Assembly (NCBI GenBank): GCA_030625815.1
Contig: DAOUQF010000028.1
Span: 1-51,479 of the forward strand
Reading direction: 5' to 3'
From: Eubacteriales bacterium
GTDB lineage: Bacteria; Bacillota; Clostridia; Tissierellales; GPF-1
DNA length: 51,479 nt
The position numbers were made by a program, and so were the translations under genes. Shown here in pieces: positions 1-7,579 of the stretch. Every line of letters starts with the position of its first letter. The first letter of the stretch is position 1. The notes under the pieces are model-generated. The model saw only the letters and a program-made list of their open reading frames with translations, had not been told where the DNA came from and searched no databases.

Positions 1-1157
1 GCCTCTTCCACCATGCGAATAATCTGTGCAAGCGCCGTCTCTTTTCCAATGCGCGTTGCACGTATCTCAACGGCACCAGTGGCATTCACCGTTGCGCCAA
101 AGACCATATCGTCCACAGTCTTGTCAACCGGCAGGCTTTCGCCCGTCAGCATGGACTCATCGATGGCGGTTTGCCCCGATACAACAATCCCATCAACCGG
201 AATTTTCTCGCCGGGTTTCACTAGGATCTGATCGCCTGTTTCCACCTCTTCCAAAGGCAGTTCGATCCAAACGCCTTCGCGCCTTACCCGCGCTATTTTT
301 GCCTGCAATTTCATTAGTTTCTTAATCGCTTCGCCCGTTCTGCCCTTGGCTCGCTCCTCCAACATTTTCCCCATCAAAATCAATGTCAACAAAACCGCCG
401 AGGTCTCAAAGTACAAATGCTGCTGGCCGACCAGGACCAAATAGATGCTGTAAAAGTACGCCGCGCTGGTCCCCATGGCTACCAACACATCCATATTGGC
501 GCCACCGCCACGCAGACTATGATAAGCGCCGCGATAAAAGATCAATCCAACAGAAAATTGTACAATGGATGCCAACGTCCACTGCAAATACCCATTGGAA
601 AGAATCGTGCGCATGCCAGCCATTTCAAAGAACATGGCCGAAAGGAGCGGCAAAGAAAGAATAGCCGAAATTATAAAATAGCGGCGCAATTTTTCTTCCC
701 GGGTCCTCTTGTCAGAAGATTCCTCGACCTTTTCTTCGGTCAAGTCAATCGGTTCATACCCCGTTTTTTCAACCACCTTCATCATTTCCGACGCACTCGT
801 CCCCTCCGCATCAAAAAGAATGGTTGCCTTGTTTGCAAGCAGATTCACATTTGCCGTATAGACGCCGTCCTGCTTGTTCAACGCTCGCTCCACCCTTGCG
901 GAACAGGCGGCACAGGTCATCCCCTCCACCCCAATGGTCACCTGAGTCACGCTTGGCGTATAGCCCGATTTTTCAATCGCAGAGAGCATCACACTCACAC
1001 CGATCTCATCTGGATCATATTGTACCGTAGCAATCTCGGACAACCCGTTGACAACGGCGCTGTTCACGCCTTCCAATCGTATCAATGCCTTTTCAACCCT
1101 TTGGGCGCAGGCTGCACAGGTCATCTCTTTTACCCGGATTCGTATCGTTCGTTCCAT
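1..1157 (-). CDS. copA: Copper-translocating P1B-type ATPase, N-terminal part
   Basis: Membrane pump that exports Cu(I) using ATP. About 385 residues are visible; the gene runs off the left edge before the CPC membrane motif and the phosphorylation domain. Two heavy-metal-associated domains come first, each with an MTCAAC metal site (Cys 14/17 and Cys 82/85). Membrane helices and the actuator domain follow, with the TGES motif in [13 protein letters not shown]. The ATG at 1155-1157 follows a GGAGG site. The gene has its own TTGACA-17-TAGTCT promoter and a G/C-rich dyad directly downstream of it, which fits copper-responsive CsoR-type control; the repressor gene is not in the window. Family assignment is firm. 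Copper specificity is inferred from the HMA motifs and the operator, because the membrane metal site is not visible. Confidence 0.93.
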
Positions 1158-1169
1158 ATTCTCGCCTCC

Positions 1170-1196
1170 TACCCCTCCCCCTATGGGGGGTGTGTA
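1170..1196 (-). promoter_or_regulatory. Putative CsoR-type operator of copA
   Basis: The dyad is centred on CCCCCTATGGGGGG, between the -10 box and the copA ribosome binding site. It resembles the G-tract operators of copper-sensing CsoR repressors. It differs from the ATACCC-N5-GGGTAT sites found elsewhere in this window, so it may be read by a different paralogue. Confidence 0.55.
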
Positions 1197-1199
1197 TTC

Positions 1200-1228
1200 A
1201 GACTATCATCTCGCCCGTTTCTTGTCAA
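1200..1228 (-). promoter_or_regulatory. copA promoter
   Basis: TTGACA (1228-1223), a 17-bp spacer and TAGTCT (1205-1200), about 45 bp upstream of the copA start. The -35 box lies just past a hairpin terminator, so copA is transcribed independently of the HesB-like genes. Confidence 0.65.
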
Positions 1229-1230
1229 CA

Positions 1231-1258
1231 CAAAACCCGACAAATTACATCGGGTTTC
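1231..1258 (-). terminator. Hairpin terminator upstream of copA
   Basis: Stem AAACCCGA/TCGGGTTT with a 9-nt loop, followed on the minus strand by TTTTGTG. It is a second stop after the HesB-Sec terminator. The stretch between the two (about 1259-1345) shows no gene on either strand. Confidence 0.6.
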
Positions 1259-1345
1259 ATTATTGTTTCAGTTAAGTTCTCAGATCTGATCAATTCCATT
1301 TATGAAACCAATACTCTATTGAATGGTTTTTTGATGCCTCGCAAA

Positions 1346-1371
1346 CACAAAAACCCGGCCTAAGCCGGGTT
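1346..1371 (-). terminator. Terminator of the HesB-like selenoprotein gene
   Basis: Stem ACCCGGC/GCCGGGT with a 4-nt loop, followed on the minus strand by TTTTTG. It starts 4 nt past the TAA stop codon, which supports the whole TGA-containing frame being a real transcription unit. Confidence 0.8.
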
Positions 1372-1374
1372 CCA

Positions 1375-1680
1375 TTAACAGCTGCCGCCACCCTCAAAGT
1401 TCGCAGGTTCAACAACAAATCCTTTTCGAAGCCAATTATCGGAAAAATCGACGCGAAACTCGCCAAATTGATCCAACAACTCCTTCGCAACAATAAACTT
1501 CACATTAGCAGTCTCATCGACTTGATCCTCATCCGTTTGCTCATCCAGAGCAATGCCAAAACGCGGCCCCGATCAGCCAAAGCCTGACACATATAAACGC
1601 AAGGTTTGATCCAATGCTTCCTTTTGCTCCATAATCCGTTTTAACTCTTCCAGAGCTGATTCGGTTGCATGTACTTTCAT
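1375..1680 (-). CDS. HesB/IscA-like selenoprotein (in-frame UGA = Sec36)
   Basis: A 101-residue protein if the TGA at 1575-1573 is read as selenocysteine. It starts at ATG 1680 behind GGAGGTGAGAAG and ends with TAA at 1377-1375. The reading is GFG-U-SGPRFGIALDE; the paralogue at 1822-2148 has GFGCSGPSFGLAF, so the TGA falls exactly on the family's first conserved Cys. Coding similarity continues on both sides of the TGA, to the C-terminal GGGSC. That leaves one Sec and one Cys (C101), where A-type Fe-S carriers normally have three Cys. HesB-like proteins are a known prokaryotic selenoprotein family. A good SECIS-like hairpin follows the UGA. The gene has its own promoter, operator and terminator. 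The alternative is a recent nonsense mutation of a Cys codon. The exact function (Fe-S, sulfur or selenium handling) is unknown. Confidence 0.85.
1537..1553 (-). promoter_or_regulatory. Bacterial SECIS-like hairpin after the UGA
   Basis: The perfect 6-bp stem TTGCTC/GAGCAA with apical loop TGGAT begins 19 nt after the TGA, which puts the loop 25 nt downstream. A G lies within the first two loop bases. Distance, short stem and loop G all fit the known bacterial SECIS pattern recognised by SelB. It lies inside the coding sequence, as expected in bacteria. Confidence 0.75.
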
Positions 1681-1694
1681 CTTCTCACCTCCAT

Positions 1695-1711
1695 ATACCC
1701 CTTACGGGTAT
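1695..1711 (-). promoter_or_regulatory. CsoR/CstR-type operator of the HesB-Sec gene
   Basis: ATACCCCTTACGGGTAT: 6-bp perfect inverted arms around a 5-bp centre. It sits just downstream of the -10 box, where a bound repressor would block transcription. The same architecture recurs at 3630-3646 and 5819-5835. Confidence 0.7.
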
Positions 1712-1715
1712 GATT

Positions 1716-1744
1716 ATCTTATCAATCCAAGTATCCTTTGTCAA
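1716..1744 (-). promoter_or_regulatory. Promoter of the HesB-Sec gene
   Basis: TTGACA (1744-1739), a 17-bp spacer and TAAGAT (1721-1716). Near-consensus housekeeping sigma promoter, separated from the upstream HesB-Cys gene by a terminator. Confidence 0.75.
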
Positions 1745-1784
1745 CCACTCTTCTCAATTTTTACCCATTCGCCGCAAATTTCAA

Positions 1785-1812
1785 CAAAAAGAAAAGCCTC
1801 CCGAACGGGAGA
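1785..1812 (-). terminator. Terminator between the two HesB-like genes
   Basis: Stem CTCCCG/CGGGAG with a 2-nt loop, followed on the minus strand by GCTTTTCTTTTT. It ends the HesB-Cys unit, so the two paralogues are transcribed separately. Confidence 0.75.
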
Positions 1813-1821
1813 CTCAATTCT

Positions 1822-2148
1822 TTATACTGCGCAGCTGCCTCCACAAGAAGAACATCCGCTTTCCGGTTGAATGGAAGAAGTCAGGATAAACCCTTTTCTC
1901 GCTTCCTCATCTACATACTCGACGGTGAAATCACCATATTGCTCATGCAATTCAGTTTGCATAATAAAATCAATTTCACTTGCGTTCGCCTCAAGATCAT
2001 CATCTTTTTTATCGTCAAACGCTAGGCCAAAGCTAGGTCCGCTACATCCAAATCCCGCTACATACAAGCGAACTGGCTTATCAGAGTCCTTTGCTTCTAA
2101 AATCTTTTTCAGCGCATCAGCCGCTGATTGCGTTAAATTCACATTCAT
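1822..2148 (-). CDS. HesB/IscA-like A-type Fe-S carrier-like protein (Cys form)
   Basis: A 108-residue member of the HesB/IscA (Fe-S biosynthesis) family. The first conserved cysteine is in VAGFGCSGPSFGLAF (about residue 35). The C-terminus, PESGCSSCGGSCAV, is richer in Cys than the usual CGC motif. It is a Cys paralogue of the Sec-containing protein next door; both share the N-terminal pattern ALKKI/ELKRI and a G-F-G-[C/U]-S-G-P core. The start follows GGAGGTTCCAAA. It has its own TTGACA-17-TAAGAT promoter but no ATACCC-N5-GGGTAT palindrome, unlike its Sec paralogue. No sulfurtransferase or isc/suf genes lie next to it, so a general Fe-S assembly role is uncertain. Confidence 0.88.
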   Translation of the reverse strand: MNVNLTQSAADALKKILEAKDSDKPVRLYVAGFGCSGPSFGLAFDDKKDDDLEANASEIDFIMQTELHEQYGDFTVEYVDEEARKGFILTSSIQPESGCSSCGGSCAV

Positions 2149-2185
2149 TTTGGAACCTCCATTCCTAGTAATTTAGTCGGGATTA

Positions 2186-2214
2186 ATCTTATCATGATGT
2201 TTTACCCCTGTCAA
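2186..2214 (-). promoter_or_regulatory. Promoter of the HesB-Cys gene
   Basis: TTGACA (2214-2209), a 17-bp spacer and TAAGAT (2191-2186). It lies just after the tlpA stop codon. No hairpin separates tlpA from it, so read-through from ccdA-tlpA is also possible. Confidence 0.7.
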
Positions 2215-2232
2215 ACTTTTTTCAATTGTCTT

Positions 2233-2877
2233 TTAATGGATTTCCACATCAATCTCTTTAAGAATTTCAAAGACCCGATCAAGGGTCGTTACATTTTCTT
2301 CGTAATCCATCGCGCCGGGAATCGCCCCGATAAACTCGCGATTCGGTCCCACATAGACCTTCGTCGGCGTGCCCGTCACATTAAAAACCCATGCGGAGTT
2401 ATTTGTATCCAATACCAGATCATGCTCATAGACAATTCCGTCGTCGGCATTGTCGTCAATATACTTCTGCAAGCTCTTTGCCGTATCGCCAATGCTCACC
2501 GAGATAATCACAGCATCCTCATAGGCCGCATCAAGCCGTGCAAGATCCGGCATCTCTTTGACGCAATAGCCGCAACTGGTTGCCCAATAATCGAGAATGA
2601 CAACCTTCCCGGCATAATCGCTCATCCGAATTTCCTTCCCCTCGGCATCTTCAAACACAAAATCATCCAAATACTCAATTTCAGGTTCTTCTGGATTCTC
2701 CGCCTCTTGAGCCGGATCGGCTTCCGGTTGTACCTCGGGCGTTTCCTCCGCTCCTTGAGCAGGCTCTGTCACCTCCGGTGCAATCGGAATCGCTTCTCCA
2801 TTCGCTTTCGGGCTGCATCCAACAACCACGAGGGCGAGAATCAACAACACTCCAAAGAGGAGTTTCTTTTTCTTCAT
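2233..2877 (-). CDS. TlpA/ResA-like thioredoxin-fold lipoprotein
   Basis: A 214-residue extracytoplasmic thiol-disulfide oxidoreductase. An N-terminal signal ends in lipobox VVVGC (Cys at about 21), so it is membrane-anchored. A Pro/Glu-rich linker (about 30-68) follows, then a thioredoxin-like domain with the redox pair in ATSCGYCVKEMP (CGYC) and the conserved cis-Pro loop GTPTKV. It lies 10 bp downstream of ccdA and is almost certainly co-transcribed. CcdA carries electrons across the membrane and proteins of this class receive them. In aerobes such pairs serve cytochrome c maturation. No cytochrome c maturation genes are visible here, so a different disulfide, persulfide or metal-stress substrate is more likely. 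Confidence 0.9.
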   Translation of the reverse strand: MKKKKLLFGVLLILALVVVGCSPKANGEAIPIAPEVTEPAQGAEETPEVQPEADPAQEAENPEEPEIEYLDDFVFEDAEGKEIRMSDYAGKVVILDYWATSCGYCVKEMPDLARLDAAYEDAVIISVSIGDTAKSLQKYIDDNADDGIVYEHDLVLDTNNSAWVFNVTGTPTKVYVGPNREFIGAIPGAMDYEENVTTLDRVFEILKEIDVEIH

Positions 2878-2887
2878 GGTTTCCCTC

Positions 2888-3601
2888 CTAATTCATCCAT
2901 TCCACCAGCCACCGGCTGATGACAACCAATTTTCCTGTCATAATCAAGATCCCAAAGAGCACAAGAACCGCTCCCCCAATCTTGCGTAGAATCAGCACAA
3001 AATGCTCAGACCGCGCAATCCAACGATCCGCGACACCTATAAACCAGGCCGTCAAGAAAAATGGTACCGCCATGCCCAAGGAATACATAAACAGCATTAA
3101 CGCTCCCCGGGAGGCTGTCGCCTCTCCCCCGGCGCTTACTAAAATAGCGCCCAGAATCGGTCCAAAACAAGGGGTCCAGCCTGCTGCAAATGCCATGCCC
3201 ATCAAGACTGCCGAAAACCAACTTCTGATTTCCCGCGGCGCCCTTGCCTTTTTCTCCCGATTTAAAATAGCAGGACTGATCCAGCCCAGCATATACAATC
3301 CAAACAGGACGATCAGCCCGCCGCTCATCAGATTAAACGCCTGCTGATAACGATTCATCAACCGACCAATCAGCGATGCCGACAAGCCCAAAGCCATAAA
3401 GATCACCGTAAAACCAATCACGAAACCGAGTGTCCGAATCATAATCTTCTTACGAGACCGATTCTCCAAATCTGTTGTTTCCGAAATATACATCAAGTAC
3501 GCAGGAACCAATGGCAAAAGACAGGGCGTTAAAAAAGAAGCCGCTCCTGCTGCAAATGCCACCCACAGCGTAATATCCAATGTTGGTCCTAAAATTATCA
3601 T
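2888..3601 (-). CDS. ccdA: CcdA-family membrane thiol-electron transporter
   Basis: A 237-residue integral membrane protein of the CcdA/DsbD-beta family with about six helices. The two signature redox cysteines are visible in SFLTPCLLPLVPAYL (near residue 27) and AGWTPCFGPILGAIL (near residue 147). It moves electrons from cytoplasmic thioredoxin to extracytoplasmic thiol proteins. The likely partner is the TlpA-like lipoprotein encoded directly downstream. The start follows AAGGGGGGCG. The upstream region has a perfect TATAAT overlapped by the palindrome ATACCC-N5-GGGTAA, the same operator type as the HesB-Sec and glutaredoxin genes, so the pair is probably in one regulon with them. Confidence 0.92.
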   Translation of the reverse strand: MIILGPTLDITLWVAFAAGAASFLTPCLLPLVPAYLMYISETTDLENRSRKKIMIRTLGFVIGFTVIFMALGLSASLIGRLMNRYQQAFNLMSGGLIVLFGLYMLGWISPAILNREKKARAPREIRSWFSAVLMGMAFAAGWTPCFGPILGAILVSAGGEATASRGALMLFMYSLGMAVPFFLTAWFIGVADRWIARSEHFVLILRKIGGAVLVLFGILIMTGKLVVISRWLVEWMN

Positions 3602-3626
3602 CGCCCCCCTTCGGTCTCTTTATCAT

Positions 3627-3646
3627 ATTATACCCCCCGGGGGTAA
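3627..3646 (-). promoter_or_regulatory. CsoR/CstR-type operator overlapping the ccdA -10 box
   Basis: The 17-bp palindrome ATACCCCCCGGGGGTAA (3630-3646) overlaps TATAAT (3632-3627). No good -35 box is seen at the right distance (CACTTG at 16 bp is the best). This is the second of three sites with ATACCC-N5-GGGTA arms in this block. Confidence 0.65.
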
Positions 3647-3679
3647 ATCAAGTGTTTTTCCAATTTTTTTACAGATCCT

Positions 3680-4561
3680 TCATATTTCCCGACGGTGTTC
3701 CGGTTCCACATGAACCGTGATCCCCAAAACATCTTCATAAGTTTCCTTGACAAGGTCTTCAACTTGATCCGCAATAGCATGTCCTTCATCAACACTGATC
3801 TCCCCGTCAACTTGAATGGTCAGATCCAAATAACAGCCCGCGGAAATGCGCCGCGATCGGATTTGCGTCAACTCCGCCTCAACCCGAGAGGTATGAATAG
3901 CTGAACGCAGGATTTCCAATTCCTCTTCCGGAAGAGAGGCATCCATCAATTCATCGATTCCATGAAACAAAATTCCGATTCCGGTCTTCACAACAACAAT
4001 GGCAACCACAACACCCGCTGCCGAATCCATCCACAACAAACCGAATCGGCTCCCCAAAACCCCAATCAAAGCGCCAAGCGATGAAAGGGCATCGCTTCGA
4101 TGATGCCAGGCGTCTGCCTGCAGCGCAGAGGACCTGAGGCGCTTTCCCGCCTTTATGGTAAAGCGATACTGCCATTCCTTCACAACAATTGATAAAACCG
4201 TTACCCAGACAGCCAGAACCCCTGGCGTTTCCAACTGACCGACCCACAGACGCTGGATCGAGCCATACCCGATGTTGATGCCAACGACAACCACCAAAAG
4301 CGCCAAAACAAAGGCTGCAATGGATTCTGCACGCTCATGGCCGTAGCGATGCTTCTCATCGGCCGGTTTTTTTGCGATAAAAAAGCCCACCAGCAAACCA
4401 ACACTAGAGGCAATATCTGAAAAGGTATGAATTCCATCGGCCAAAACAGCCCTCGAATGCGCAAATGTCCCCACAAGCACCTTCGCAACACCCAGTATGA
4501 AATTAATCAAAATGGCAATCCACAAAACCCGTTTTCCTTCATTATACCGTGTTTTACTCAT
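3680..4561 (-). CDS. CDF-family divalent cation exporter
   Basis: A 293-residue cation diffusion facilitator: proton-coupled efflux of Zn(II), Fe(II), Mn(II) or similar ions. The first metal-site helix carries ADGIHTFSD and the fifth carries DAWHHRSDA, giving the HxxxD-type ligand pairs of the family. The C-terminal cytoplasmic domain (about 205-293) ends with the ferredoxin-like dimerisation fold and ITVHVEPEH. Length is typical. It has its own promoter (TTGTTG-17-TATATT at 4613-4585) and is divergent from the deacetylase gene. The ATACCC palindrome is absent here, so it is probably outside the redox regulon. The metal cannot be fixed from sequence alone. Confidence 0.92.
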   Translation of the reverse strand: MSKTRYNEGKRVLWIAILINFILGVAKVLVGTFAHSRAVLADGIHTFSDIASSVGLLVGFFIAKKPADEKHRYGHERAESIAAFVLALLVVVVGINIGYGSIQRLWVGQLETPGVLAVWVTVLSIVVKEWQYRFTIKAGKRLRSSALQADAWHHRSDALSSLGALIGVLGSRFGLLWMDSAAGVVVAIVVVKTGIGILFHGIDELMDASLPEEELEILRSAIHTSRVEAELTQIRSRRISAGCYLDLTIQVDGEISVDEGHAIADQVEDLVKETYEDVLGITVHVEPEHRREI

Positions 4562-4584
4562 TTGCCTTTCCCCCCTTATGGTCG

Positions 4585-4613
4585 AATATACCCTGTTTTT
4601 CCCTGCTCAACAA
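4585..4613 (-). promoter_or_regulatory. Promoter of the CDF transporter gene
   Basis: TTGTTG (4613-4608), a 17-bp spacer and TATATT (4590-4585), 24 bp upstream of the start codon. Confidence 0.55.
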
Positions 4614-4660
4614 GGCTTTTTGCAAGATCACAACGAATGCAAGGCGTAACTAACTCTCAA

Positions 4661-4688
4661 TTGCAGGTTATTCTCAATATGGTACAAT
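4661..4688 (+). promoter_or_regulatory. Promoter of the polysaccharide deacetylase gene
   Basis: TTGCAG (4661-4666), a 16-bp spacer and TACAAT (4683-4688), followed by the ribosome binding site AAAGGAGG. Confidence 0.6.
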
Positions 4689-4706
4689 AACGAAAGGAGG
4701 AAGAAA

Positions 4707-5498
4707 ATGAAACGAAAAAAAGTCAACCGCATAATTTTAGTCATTCTGCTCGCCGTTTTTGTTTTTTTCGGCCTTGCAGAGCGAAAACCAATAGATGGCG
4801 TTCCCGTTCTGCTCTATCATCAATTGATGTCCAATCGCGAATATGAAACCATTGAAAAAAACGATGCCATTATGTCCATCGGAGAATTTAAAAAACAAAT
4901 GGAGATGATTGCCGAAGCCGGCTATCAAACCATTACCCTCGATCAGCTCCAACAGCATCTAAGCGGAGAGGTGACCGCTCCTGAAAATTCCATCGTAATC
5001 ACCTTCGATGACGGATACATGAGCGACTATCGGCTTGCCTATCCCATGCTGAAAGAATACGGCTTTCACGCGGAATCCTTTCTGGTTACCAGCTTTCTGC
5101 AGGAAGCTTCCGGGGATGAAGAGCGATTGTTCACAGCGAATACGGAAGAGATGAAAGACGTTTTCACCTTCCATTCCCATAGTCACGCCCTTCATACCTT
5201 TGCCTACGAACATGGAGACTTGAGCGAATTGTTGACGGAAAACCTGACCTGGGACACGGATCTTTCCCTGCAAACCCTTGAAATCAAAGGGATCAAAGAG
5301 AAAGAGGACCTGGATGCCTTCTCCTACCCCTACGGAAAATACGACGATCGTTTTCAAGAAATCTTGACTTTCCTCGATGTATCTCTCGGCTTTACGACCC
5401 AAAAGGGTTATGTGAAAGAGGGTTGCGATCCCCTGGCTCTTCCCCGATTCGGCATTTACCCGGAACGTTTCGGACAATTGTATCGAATTTTACATTAA
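4707..5498 (+). CDS. Polysaccharide deacetylase (CE4/NodB fold), membrane-anchored
   Basis: A 263-residue protein. A basic N-terminus and one hydrophobic segment (about 8-24) act as a signal anchor. The NodB domain follows, with the catalytic/metal Asp pair in VITFDDGY, the metal His residues in TFHSHSHALH, and the SYPYGKYD motif. Such enzymes remove N-acetyl groups from peptidoglycan or exported polysaccharides outside the membrane. It is monocistronic: own promoter, AAAGGAGG site, and a strong hairpin 20 bp after the stop. It stands alone on the plus strand between minus-strand redox genes, with no exopolysaccharide genes nearby. The substrate is unknown. Confidence 0.88.
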   Translation: MKRKKVNRIILVILLAVFVFFGLAERKPIDGVPVLLYHQLMSNREYETIEKNDAIMSIGEFKKQMEMIAEAGYQTITLDQLQQHLSGEVTAPENSIVITFDDGYMSDYRLAYPMLKEYGFHAESFLVTSFLQEASGDEERLFTANTEEMKDVFTFHSHSHALHTFAYEHGDLSELLTENLTWDTDLSLQTLEIKGIKEKEDLDAFSYPYGKYDDRFQEILTFLDVSLGFTTQKGYVKEGCDPLALPRFGIYPERFGQLYRILH

Positions 5499-5514
5499 AA
5501 AATCAGCGCTCGCA

Positions 5515-5551
5515 TAAAAAAAGATCCCGAAATAATTTCGGGATCTTTTTG
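5515..5551. terminator. Bidirectional terminator between deacetylase and glutaredoxin genes
   Basis: Stem AAGATCCCGAAA/TTTCGGGATCTT with a short loop, flanked by A-runs on the left and T-runs on the right. It can stop transcription of both converging genes. Confidence 0.85.
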
Positions 5552-5556
5552 ACATT

Positions 5557-5787
5557 CTATAATCCGAGCAATTGATCGATTCGTGCCTTGTCGAATCCAA
5601 CAACCTCTTCATCGCCAATCACCAATACCGGTACGCCCATATGACCTTTCGCCATCAATTCCTTGCGCGCTTCCATATCCGTTTGCACGTTTTTCTCTTC
5701 ATATTCTACATTGTTCAATTTCAAATAATCCTTTGCCGCCACACAATGTGGGCATGTGTTCGTTGAATACACAATTACTTTTGCCAT
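5557..5787 (-). CDS. Glutaredoxin-like protein (NrdH/Grx type)
   Basis: A 76-residue thioredoxin-fold protein with active site [15 protein letters not shown], cis-Pro motif [16 protein letters not shown] and a C-terminal helix [11 protein letters not shown]. It reduces small disulfides or mixed disulfides, probably with thioredoxin reductase or a low-molecular-weight thiol. The ATG at 5787 is chosen because AGGAGGAG lies just upstream. A longer in-frame start at 5844 would place the promoter and operator inside the gene. It is monocistronic and controlled by a consensus promoter whose spacer and -10 are covered by the ATACCC-N5-GGGTAT palindrome, linking it to the HesB-Sec and CcdA-TlpA units. 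Confidence 0.9.
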
Positions 5788-5815
5788 GGTAACTCCTCCT
5801 TTTTCTTGTACAAAC

Positions 5816-5844
5816 AATATACCCCGATCGGGTATCTTTGTCAA
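5816..5844 (-). promoter_or_regulatory. Glutaredoxin promoter with CsoR/CstR-type operator
   Basis: TTGACA (5844-5839), a 17-bp spacer and TATATT (5821-5816). The palindrome ATACCCCGATCGGGTAT (5819-5835) fills the spacer and part of the -10 box, so a bound repressor would exclude RNA polymerase. The TTGACA contains the TGA stop codon of lplA. Confidence 0.75.
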
Positions 5845-6716
5845 TAAACATTTTGTTCTTTGATCCAGCGGAGGAAATCCTCCGGCATTTCTTTTCCTAC
5901 CCAGGTTTGATCAAAACAATCAGAAAGCTCTAAGAATCTCCCATTTTTAACCTTTATTTCATGGTCTTTCCACTTCACGGTGAAAAGCGGAGTCATTCCT
6001 CGATTCCACTCCCAGGTCCTGTATTTCTCCTCTGCCAGCGTCTCCGCCTTCTCCATGAGTTCATGGCCTGGCTGCCACAGCTCGCCATTTGCCGCTCCCC
6101 TAATCCCTTGGATCCACTTCTCCATAAAACCGTCCGTAGAGAGCTCAGACAGGTATTCTGAAAGGTTTACAATTGGCGCTGGAACAGAAGGAGCCGCATG
6201 GGTTTCAAATTCCAATTCACCCTGTCGATCCAACAATCGATGGATCCGATCCAAATCCGAATCAAAGAGCAGGGTTCCATGGAAGAGTGTCGTATCGCGG
6301 CGCATATATTGCGCAGATCCAGAAATCTTCTTTCCATCGATGCGAAAATCATTCCGCTCCGAGGTTTGAATATCCAGTCCCATCTCGCGCAACCCCTGCA
6401 AAACAGGGGCGTACAGCGCAGGAAAGTCCACCGTTTTACTGGGCACATCCTTCAAGATCAAGCTGTAATTCACATTGCCCTCGTCATGAACCACGCAACC
6501 GCCACCGGAAATTCGCCGGAATACGGGAACCGCCTCCGCTTCGGCCTGAGCCAAATTCACCTCGATCCAAGGATTCTGATGCTTGCCCACAATAACGGAC
6601 GGAGAATTCCGATAAAGAAACAACAGGGAATCAAATTCCCCTTCAAAAAACAAAACCTCTTCCACTGCCAGATGGAAGGCGGGATCCCTTCCTTCCGATA
6701 CAACGATCTTCATCAT
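5841..6716 (-). CDS. lplA: Lipoate-protein ligase A
   Basis: A 291-residue ligase that activates free lipoate (or octanoate) with ATP and attaches it to a lysine on lipoyl-domain proteins. The lipoate-binding Gly-rich loop [19 protein letters not shown], the KISGSAQ segment with the catalytic lysine region, and HGTLLFD are visible. The C-terminal part, with [15 protein letters not shown], is the small accessory domain of LplA rather than the LipM/LipL octanoyltransferases, which lack it. The ATG overlaps the rsmA stop (ATGA-type overlap), so the two are translationally coupled. Its own stop codon lies inside the -35 box of the next promoter. Confidence 0.9.
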
Positions 6717-7579
6717 GCCAAAACCTCTCCAATGGCGTCAGCCAGTCGGCCAAACTCCTCGAGAGACAGGCTCTCTCCCCTTCGCATGGGGTCAATCTCC
6801 GCCTTTGCCAAGGCTTCCCTCAAAAGGTCCTTGGCAACCCCCATAGTCGAAGAAAGGGTGTTCGGCAGGGTCTTCCTGCGCTGAGCAAAGGCCGCCTTGA
6901 CGACGCGGAAAAACAGATCCTCATCCTTCACATCTACCGCAGGTTTCTCGCGACGTATCAGGGCGATCACCGCAGAATCCACATTGGGAGGCGGGAAAAA
7001 GGAACCCGCCGACACCGTTGTTACGATTTTGGCTTCCGCATAGTATTGCACCGCAATGGAGAGGGTGCCGTAGGCCTTGGTGGACGGGACCGCTTGCATC
7101 CGGTCCGCCACTTCCTTTTGCACCATGACCACAATCCGCTCCACCGGCAATTTTTTCTCAAAAAAGTTCATAATGATTGGCGTCGTGATATAGTAAGGCA
7201 GATTCGCCACCACCTTGACCTGCTTGCCAGCAAACTTCTCTTCAAACAATTGCGGCAAATCCAATCTCAAGATATCACCCAACACCACTTCCACATTGGA
7301 ATATTCTGAGAGGGTTTCATCCAAAACAGGCAAGAGTCCCCGATCGATCTCCACGGCAACAACCCGGCCCGCTCGCTCGCACAGAACCTGAGTCAGCACC
7401 CCAATTCCAGGACCAACCTCCAGGACCACGTCCTCTTCCGACAATTCCGCACCCTCGGCGATTCGATCCAGCACGGATCCGTCTATCAAAAAATTCTGCC
7501 CCAGGCTCTTGGAAAAATGAAAACCATGCCGGCCCAATACCTCTCGCATCACCGACGGTTTATATAGTCTCTCTTTCAT
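6713..7579 (-). CDS. rsmA: 16S rRNA (adenine1518/1519-N6)-dimethyltransferase
   Basis: The 288-residue KsgA/RsmA enzyme dimethylates two adjacent adenines in helix 45 of 16S rRNA during small-subunit maturation. Signatures: KSLGQNFLID near the N-terminus, SAM-binding VLEVGPGIGVLT, catalytic NLPYYITTPII (about 125-135), and the C-terminal RRKTLPNTLSS. The start at 7579 follows AAAGGAGG. It overlaps the 3' end of rnmV by 20 bp, matching the rnmV-ksgA order of B. subtilis. Confidence 0.97.
   Translation of the reverse strand: MKERLYKPSVMREVLGRHGFHFSKSLGQNFLIDGSVLDRIAEGAELSEEDVVLEVGPGIGVLTQVLCERAGRVVAVEIDRGLLPVLDETLSEYSNVEVVLGDILRLDLPQLFEEKFAGKQVKVVANLPYYITTPIIMNFFEKKLPVERIVVMVQKEVADRMQAVPSTKAYGTLSIAVQYYAEAKIVTTVSAGSFFPPPNVDSAVIALIRREKPAVDVKDEDLFFRVVKAAFAQRRKTLPNTLSSTMGVAKDLLREALAKAEIDPMRRGESLSLEEFGRLADAIGEVLA

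Follow-up and report, generated by a model that had tools for sequence, protein, structure and literature searches.

Organization of the locus

The window, by which is meant the whole stretch of 51,479 nucleotides analysed here, is contig C14 of a 3.22 Mb genome in 58 contigs (G000). It carries on its minus strand a gene for a HesB-like protein, hesB-Sec, whose frame holds a TGA, together with a tandem Cys paralogue, hesB-Cys, and several redox genes. The features are as follows.

3..1157, minus: copA-like P-type ATPase gene, cut by the contig end
1350..1373, minus: terminator-like hairpin of hesB-Sec
1375..1680, minus: hesB-Sec, HesB-like selenoprotein gene (101 residues, Sec36, Cys101)
1537..1553, minus: SECIS-type hairpin, core GCUC-UGGAU-GAGC at 1551-1539 (covariation; predicted fold)
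1573..1575, minus: UGA codon of the predicted Sec36, in the UxGP motif and at the position of the first conserved Cys
1695..1711, minus: predicted CsoR type-2 operator ATACCCGTAAGGGGTAT, immediately following the -10 box of hesB-Sec
1716..1744, minus: promoter-like boxes of hesB-Sec, TTGACA from 1744 and TAAGAT to 1716
1794..1815, minus: terminator-like hairpin between hesB-Cys and hesB-Sec
1822..2148, minus: hesB-Cys, tandem paralogue with TGT at the aligned codon and no operator upstream
2233..2877, minus: thioredoxin-like (ResA/TlpA-like) protein gene, behind the CcdA/DsbD gene
2888..3601, minus: CcdA/DsbD transmembrane protein gene (PF02683)
3630..3646, minus: operator of the CcdA/DsbD gene, a perfect TACC-N7-GGTA that differs from ATACC-N7-GGTAT at one position
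5557..5787, minus: YruB-type glutaredoxin gene (TIGR02196, 93.9 bits, cut-off 88.55)
5819..5835, minus: operator of the glutaredoxin gene

The hesB-Sec frame runs from an ATG at 1680-1678 to a TAA at 1377-1375, with its single TGA (1575-1573) as codon 36, and is preceded by a GGAGGTG ribosome site; the predicted operator sits between this site and the -10 box. An earlier note made from the sequence had read the frame from 1680 to 1375, interrupted once by this TGA, as a HesB-like selenoprotein gene with intact promoter, ribosome site and terminator. The coordinates were exact and span 101 codons, and the promoter-like boxes, the GGAGGTG and the terminator-like hairpin (1373-1350) are all present.

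An in-frame UGA in a selenocysteine-decoding genome

The TGA lies, as the earlier note had it, at the first conserved Cys of the HesB/IscA family, and the paralogue has TGT at the aligned codon. Coding similarity downstream of the UGA was also confirmed, conservation reaching as far as the final Cys. A counterpart in a second assembly (L026), 88% identical, likewise carries TGA at this codon. Cultured relatives include Maledivibacter halophilus (L030) and Thermohalobacter berrensis (L031). A search with the window protein as query, which favours close relatives, yielded 27 genome-contig loci, each with a TGA copy; the suggested comparison of U and C at this position gave TGA in 28 copies and Cys in 4 across these loci. 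A sequencing error was rejected and the TGA taken as real, because it recurs at the same codon in L026 and TGA copies occur in 27 of 27 loci. Reassignment of TGA was rejected as well, since TGA terminates three genes of the window that have Pfam matches (3680-4561, 5841-6716 and 6713-7579), so that the genetic code is standard for this codon. The gene exemplifies those that standard gene calling would cut short.

All four selenocysteine genes, named beforehand as a check, were found in the same genome: selA, selB (342 bits), selD (389 bits) and the tRNA-Sec gene selC (75.3 bits, anticodon tca). The selA and selD genes adjoin on contig C3, and selC lies about 2 kb from selB on C38. The link extends beyond this genome. 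In a class sample of 391 genomes, HesB matches (E up to 1e-6) were obtained in 48, of which 31 have TGA and 17 Cys only. The selA gene was found in 60 of the 391 genomes, in all 31 genomes with UGA-HesB and in 7 of the 17 with Cys only; within this sample, UGA-HesB is confined to selA genomes.

A separate observation concerns selD of G000 (C3:1548-2471, minus; L021), which has one in-frame TGA across the full selD model match. This selD is probably a selenoprotein gene itself, because its own frame holds that TGA.

A covarying hairpin downstream of the UGA

In the window, the sequence starting 24 nt after the T of the UGA is GCTCTGGATGAGC, which holds the predicted hairpin. The folding energy of this single hairpin is unexceptional (z -0.42 and -1.15) and is no evidence by itself, and an Rfam search of window positions 1-6000 returned 8 weak matches, none reaching the gathering score and none over 1537-1575. 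The evidence comes from comparison of genes. A set of 88 HesB genes was reduced to 75 at 85% identity (Sec from 63 to 54, Cys from 25 to 21), with start codons chosen by a script, and this 75-gene set underlies the hairpin and operator counts. When the best of five offsets was taken in both groups, four or more consecutive pairs were found in 52 of the 54 Sec genes versus 1 of the 21 Cys genes. The Sec matches stand at offset 24 in 51 cases and at 27 in the remaining one (L084). Among Sec genes the stem covaries (TA/GC; GC/AT/TA; CG/TA), and 308 of 324 cells are paired, compared with a mean of 266 and a maximum of 280 when the 3' side is shuffled, and with 52 of 126 cells in Cys genes. Two loop G's are conserved in 53 and 54 of the 54 Sec genes.

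It is hardly credible that the TGA is a true stop, with a 35-residue product or a pseudogene whose remaining frame is a relic: a table 11 reading does interrupt the frame, and dN/dS against L026 (NG86) is 0.288 after the UGA versus 0.097 before it and 0.043 in the Cys copy, a rise ascribed to the hairpin restraining synonymous change there, but 54 non-redundant genes retain the UGA together with a covarying hairpin, sequence conservation continues beyond the UGA to the last Cys, and the link of UGA to selA is strict (31 of 31 genomes), on which grounds this reading was rejected. The selenoprotein interpretation of the earlier note was thus upheld, every computable route to its refutation having failed.

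The Sec genes without a stem are L093 and L190. In L093 (2028-2354, genome G372), the stem-less TGA copy adjoins a similar Cys copy, and it could be a new or a decaying selenoprotein gene or simply end at a plain stop. The sole Cys gene with a stem belongs to L045 (5001-5318), where it adjoins a Sec copy as part of a tandem pair; it retains the SECIS-like stem GCTTTAGATGAGC without the GG loop, and judging by this sequence it may be a former selenoprotein gene. A SECIS remnant of such a kind was described in 2006 in a Cys HesB-like gene of Desulfitobacterium, in the part of the paper available (PMC1794560).

Protein family and fold

The hesB-Sec product matches PF01521 with 34.8 bits (cut-off 26.3). 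With C in place of U, the best two of nine NCBIfam matches were NF038090 (IscA_HesB_Se, 79.1 bits) and TIGR01911 (HesB_rel_seleno, 55.7 bits), both under the curated cut-offs of 85 and 66.35, respectively. These cut-offs are treated here as annotation thresholds and not as the definition of the family. Judged from its sequence, hesB-Sec is a further member of the known HesB-like selenoproteins, with which it shares the HesB fold, Sec at the first conserved Cys, a Sec-decoding genome, the downstream hairpin and the UxGP motif (here U-S-G-P), and from which it differs in scoring below both cut-offs. That such proteins were already known, as the earlier note remarked, is correct: they were in print by 2006, when 11 HesB-like selenoproteins and two Sec-to-Cys conversions were reported (PMC1794560), and a 2026 paper lists TIGR01911 with UxGP (PMC13188914). 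In the available parts of both papers, no tested function is given for them.

In an alignment of 36 Sec proteins (from 35 of the 54 non-redundant Sec genes, plus L026), no variation occurs at the Sec column, G35, G38, P39, F41 or G87; C101 is present in at least 90%. The predicted structure has a mean pLDDT of 88.8, with residues 98-101 below 50, and matches IscA and SufA structures; the sequence profile of the Sec protein also matches IscA/SufA. The A-type Fe-S carriers IscA, SufA and ErpA have three Cys ligands, one Cys and a Cys-x-Cys. The fold and the first ligand position are the same here, but Sec36 replaces the first Cys and there is one C-terminal Cys, not Cys-x-Cys. Having no such three-Cys ligand set, the product is not filed as an A-type carrier.

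A CsoR-type operator upstream of hesB-Sec and of redox genes

The published CsoR type-2 site has the consensus ATATACCCCTNAGGGGTATAT and follows the rule TAC-X9-GTA, according to the portion available of PMC3902906. The site ATACCCGTAAGGGGTAT fits both and has G/C tracts. Its inner form TACC-N7-GGTA occurs three times in the window, versus 0.10 by chance. Across the 75-gene set, 24 of the 54 Sec genes carry this form in the 160 nt preceding them, compared with a mean of 0.15 and a maximum of 2 in 300 shuffles, and none of the 21 Cys genes does; control spacings of 3-6 and 8-12 gave between 0 and 3 Sec genes and no more than one Cys gene. The 27 loci and the window together (304,594 bases) contain 23 sites, distributed over hesB-Sec (12), glutaredoxin (7) and CcdA/DsbD (3) genes, with one inside copA.

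The exact form was not found upstream of 30 of the 54 Sec genes. It was also not clearly enriched at genome scale: with up to one mismatch, this genome has 59 motif matches versus 98 for the reversed control, and 16 genomes have 111 exact motifs versus 94 for the control. A large regulon was rejected, the motif being not clearly above the reversed control genome-wide; since 30 of the 54 Sec genes also have no exact site, the regulon must be small.

The earlier note had drawn attention to a shared operator. If this meant an operator shared by the Sec/Cys pair, it does not hold, as the Cys paralogue has no TACC-N7-GGTA in front of it; an operator common to the tandem pair was rejected, 0 of the 21 Cys genes having the motif. 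The operator of hesB-Sec is instead common to redox genes nearby and elsewhere in the genome.

A frequent partner was glutaredoxin. In a table not reduced for redundancy, 22 glutaredoxin matches were counted in 21 of 80 HesB-gene sources (flanks of about 1 to 5 kb), always on the hesB strand. Eight lie 13-82 nt downstream of hesB-Sec, ten are separate with an operator of their own, and four have neither arrangement (L030, L038, L041 and one of two L035 copies). This common promoter or operator of hesB-Sec and glutaredoxin is the best functional clue found.

The outer form ATACC-N7-GGTAT occurs exactly six times in G000 among the matches listed. Its sites precede hesB-Sec, the glutaredoxin gene, a Dps-like ferritin gene with a divergent ferredoxin gene, a thioredoxin-like gene, and an ACR3-like transporter gene with a divergent flavodoxin-like gene; the sixth, on contig C12, has no G/C tract and is probably a chance occurrence. 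At L058 (917-1751, contig C36 of G000), the Dps-like ferritin and small ferredoxin genes diverge from one operator. Among relatives, the motif precedes a ferredoxin gene (G069), copA-like genes (G157 and G393), genes for DsrE and a Fer4_5 protein (G392), a gene for a like protein seen by eye (G141), and CcdA/DsbD (G064). The sites inspected were among the matches listed, those with G/C tracts being picked by eye. In 17 inspected stretches, a redox, metal or csoR gene was seen by eye behind the site in 9 (L146, L147 and L150-L156) and not in 8. Six further stretches comprise four with such a gene (L212, L213, L215 and L216), one with a methyltransferase gene (L214) and one with nothing clear (L217). 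Pfam checks of motif-site stretches covered L150, L154, L155, L212, L213, L214 and L203. Overall, the targets that bear the operator are a mix of redox, sulfur and metal genes.

No link between CsoR and HesB was found in the open-licence literature searched, nor one between persulfide, CstR and a selenoprotein. HesB is unmentioned in the available part of PMC3519856, in which both CsoR and selenocysteine occur, and the available parts of papers on HesB-like selenoproteins make no mention of a CsoR-type operator or a glutaredoxin link. Judged from the open-licence literature, the CsoR-type operator and the glutaredoxin partnership would be the new, testable part of this work. An operator of a well-studied repressor family, combined with a frequent glutaredoxin partner, offers a first testable lead to the function of HesB-like selenoproteins.

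Proposed mechanism

In the proposed mechanism, SelB and Sec-tRNA would read the UGA at 1575-1573 as Sec36, aided by the hairpin at 1553-1537, to give a 101-residue protein of the HesB/IscA fold, bearing Sec36 and, at its C terminus, Cys101. The type-2 operator at the transcription start would be occupied by a CsoR-family repressor, which would release it on a thiophilic signal, either Cu(I) or sulfane sulfur. This operator is also present at the YruB-type glutaredoxin gene and at the CcdA/thioredoxin pair, which is why the selenoprotein and the glutaredoxin most likely act jointly, on thiol, Fe-S or thiophilic-metal stress. It thus seems that hesB-Sec and its glutaredoxin partner are switched on through a repressor of a copper- or sulfur-sensing type. 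To the whole explanation, that is, a HesB-like selenoprotein, a CsoR-family repressor at a type-2 operator and a glutaredoxin partnership, we assign a probability of about 0.8.

A more specific reading, on which we would accept no better than even odds, is that the Sec-HesB proteins of Clostridia act as selenium-armed effectors within a small regulon of the CsoR family responding to Cu(I) or sulfane-sulfur stress, with Sec36 and Cys101 forming a selenenylsulfide or a metal site that the co-regulated glutaredoxin resets, and with the tandem Cys copy serving unstressed cells. Its members would be Sec-HesB, YruB glutaredoxin and CcdA/thioredoxin and, in some lineages, ferredoxin, DsrE or copA. 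Which signal induces HesB-like selenoproteins, and what role they have under it, become testable questions.

Candidate repressor and inducer

Two PF02583 matches over the cut-off, both CsoR-family regulators, were found in G000. The first, L053 on contig C54, has Cys-Tyr-Cys, and the second, L054, has the Cu(I) set Cys-His-Cys. Regulator clades A and B are our own reading of a FastTree tree. The L053 clade has 34 rows: Cys-His-Cys in 24, Cys-Tyr-Cys in 8, and Cys-Tyr-Ser and Cys-Asn-Cys in one each. Ten of the 34 genes of this clade have a related site no more than 600 nt away, versus none of the 15 in the copA-linked clade and 11 of 239 stretches taken as background, which include these loci. 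In G398 and G055 the motif immediately precedes CsoR-family genes, and the rseC-like/csoR operon of G000 and G396 has TAC-N9-GTA plus a G tract in the corresponding position. L054 stands behind copA and an HMA gene; the order copA, HMA gene, csoR has been published for the cop operon of Clostridium acidurici, as described in the available part of PMC3519856. From these sequence comparisons, L053 is the likelier repressor of hesB-Sec and the best candidate in G000, because its clade has the sites (10 of 34 versus 0 of 15) and L054 is copA-linked. Genome G069 has the site without a PF02583 match, which argues against a single repressor answer.

As a neighbouring observation, the genes at L053 (189-2179) stand in the order rseC-like gene, CsoR-family regulator gene, glyA, and glyA also adjoins the regulator in G398, G395, G064 and G396.

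Control by Cu(I) is a plausible answer towards which we do not quite lean. The operator would be that of a copper-sensing CsoR, and Sec-HesB would protect or repair Fe-S proteins under copper stress. As in CsoR copper regulons of the copZA type, the operator is type 2, TAC-X9-GTA with G/C tracts, and the genome has CsoR-family regulators; the motif fits the copper CsoR operators in the available part of PMC3902906. It also stands before the copA-like genes of G157 and G393, hesB-Sec adjoins copA in the window, L026, L039 and L041 and lies near csoR in L026 and L039, and most L053-clade regulators retain Cys-His-Cys. However, the targets here are mainly the selenoprotein, glutaredoxin and CcdA genes, and those of G000 and G392 are redox or sulfur genes. 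The candidate L053 has Tyr in place of His, and copA of G000 has its own Cys-His-Cys CsoR (L054) and a different repeat: the G/C-tract repeat before it (1173-1190) is differently built and not of the TACC-N7-GGTA form.

Sulfane-sulfur (persulfide) control of the selenoprotein by a CstR-like family member is possible, and is held tentatively. L053 has both conserved Cys and no His, and the motif is found at thioredoxin, glutaredoxin, CcdA and DsrE genes, which recalls the sulfur and redox genes of CstR/YrkD regulons; repressors of this type govern sulfur genes, according to the available parts of PMC9918477 and PMC10318464. Against this, 24 of the 34 clade members retain the His, unlike CstR/YrkD regulators, and copA-like genes have the motif in two genomes.

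The tandem Sec/Cys pair

The paralogue, placed 140 bp away by the earlier note, was found with 141 bp between the two genes; hesB-Cys and hesB-Sec are 45% identical over residues 1-93, and a whole-genome search with the Sec protein (E up to 1) returned these two genes only. In the window pair, the operator stands at the Sec copy only, and hesB-Cys would be made independently of the signal proposed for hesB-Sec. The locus thereby presents a tandem pair whose Sec and Cys members are wired differently. Sec/Cys neighbours were also found in L026, in L042 and L043, in L045, in G189 and in G372. A tree of 79 HesB proteins joins the two copies as sisters in G189 and in G372 and places those of L045 in a common clade of three; 26 inner branches of this tree are open, and the origin of the window Cys copy was not placed by it.

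Such neighbours invite the explanation of an isoform switch, in which the tandem Cys copy replaces the Sec copy under selenium shortage, and Methanococcus maripaludis offers a precedent, its Cys isoforms being used under selenium depletion according to the part of the source available. We consider a switch of this kind unlikely, as the operator found is of the CsoR type and a Cys copy is nearby in only 4 of the 27 ten-kb loci.

Slightly less likely still is that hesB-Sec is a selenoprotein gene whose palindrome serves a regulator from outside the CsoR family. The site in G069, a genome with no PF02583 match, and the 30 Sec genes without the exact motif would agree with this, but the form and spacing of the motif match the published CsoR type-2 rule (PMC3902906, available part), it stands directly before CsoR-family genes in two genomes, and related sites lie near 10 of the 34 genes of the L053 clade, versus none of the 15 copA-linked csoR genes and 11 of the 239 background stretches. 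The preferred reading remains that the operator at hesB-Sec would be bound by a CsoR-family repressor.

Surroundings of the window

The copA-like gene runs off the end of C14, and contig C44 (L054, 1-1712) starts with the rest of a copA, followed by the HMA gene and csoR. The two contigs are probably adjacent, because each has one part of a copA and L026 has copA and csoR on one contig. L026, the closest relative, has between hesB-Sec and copA a frame of some 550 codons (5304-7201) that the window lacks.
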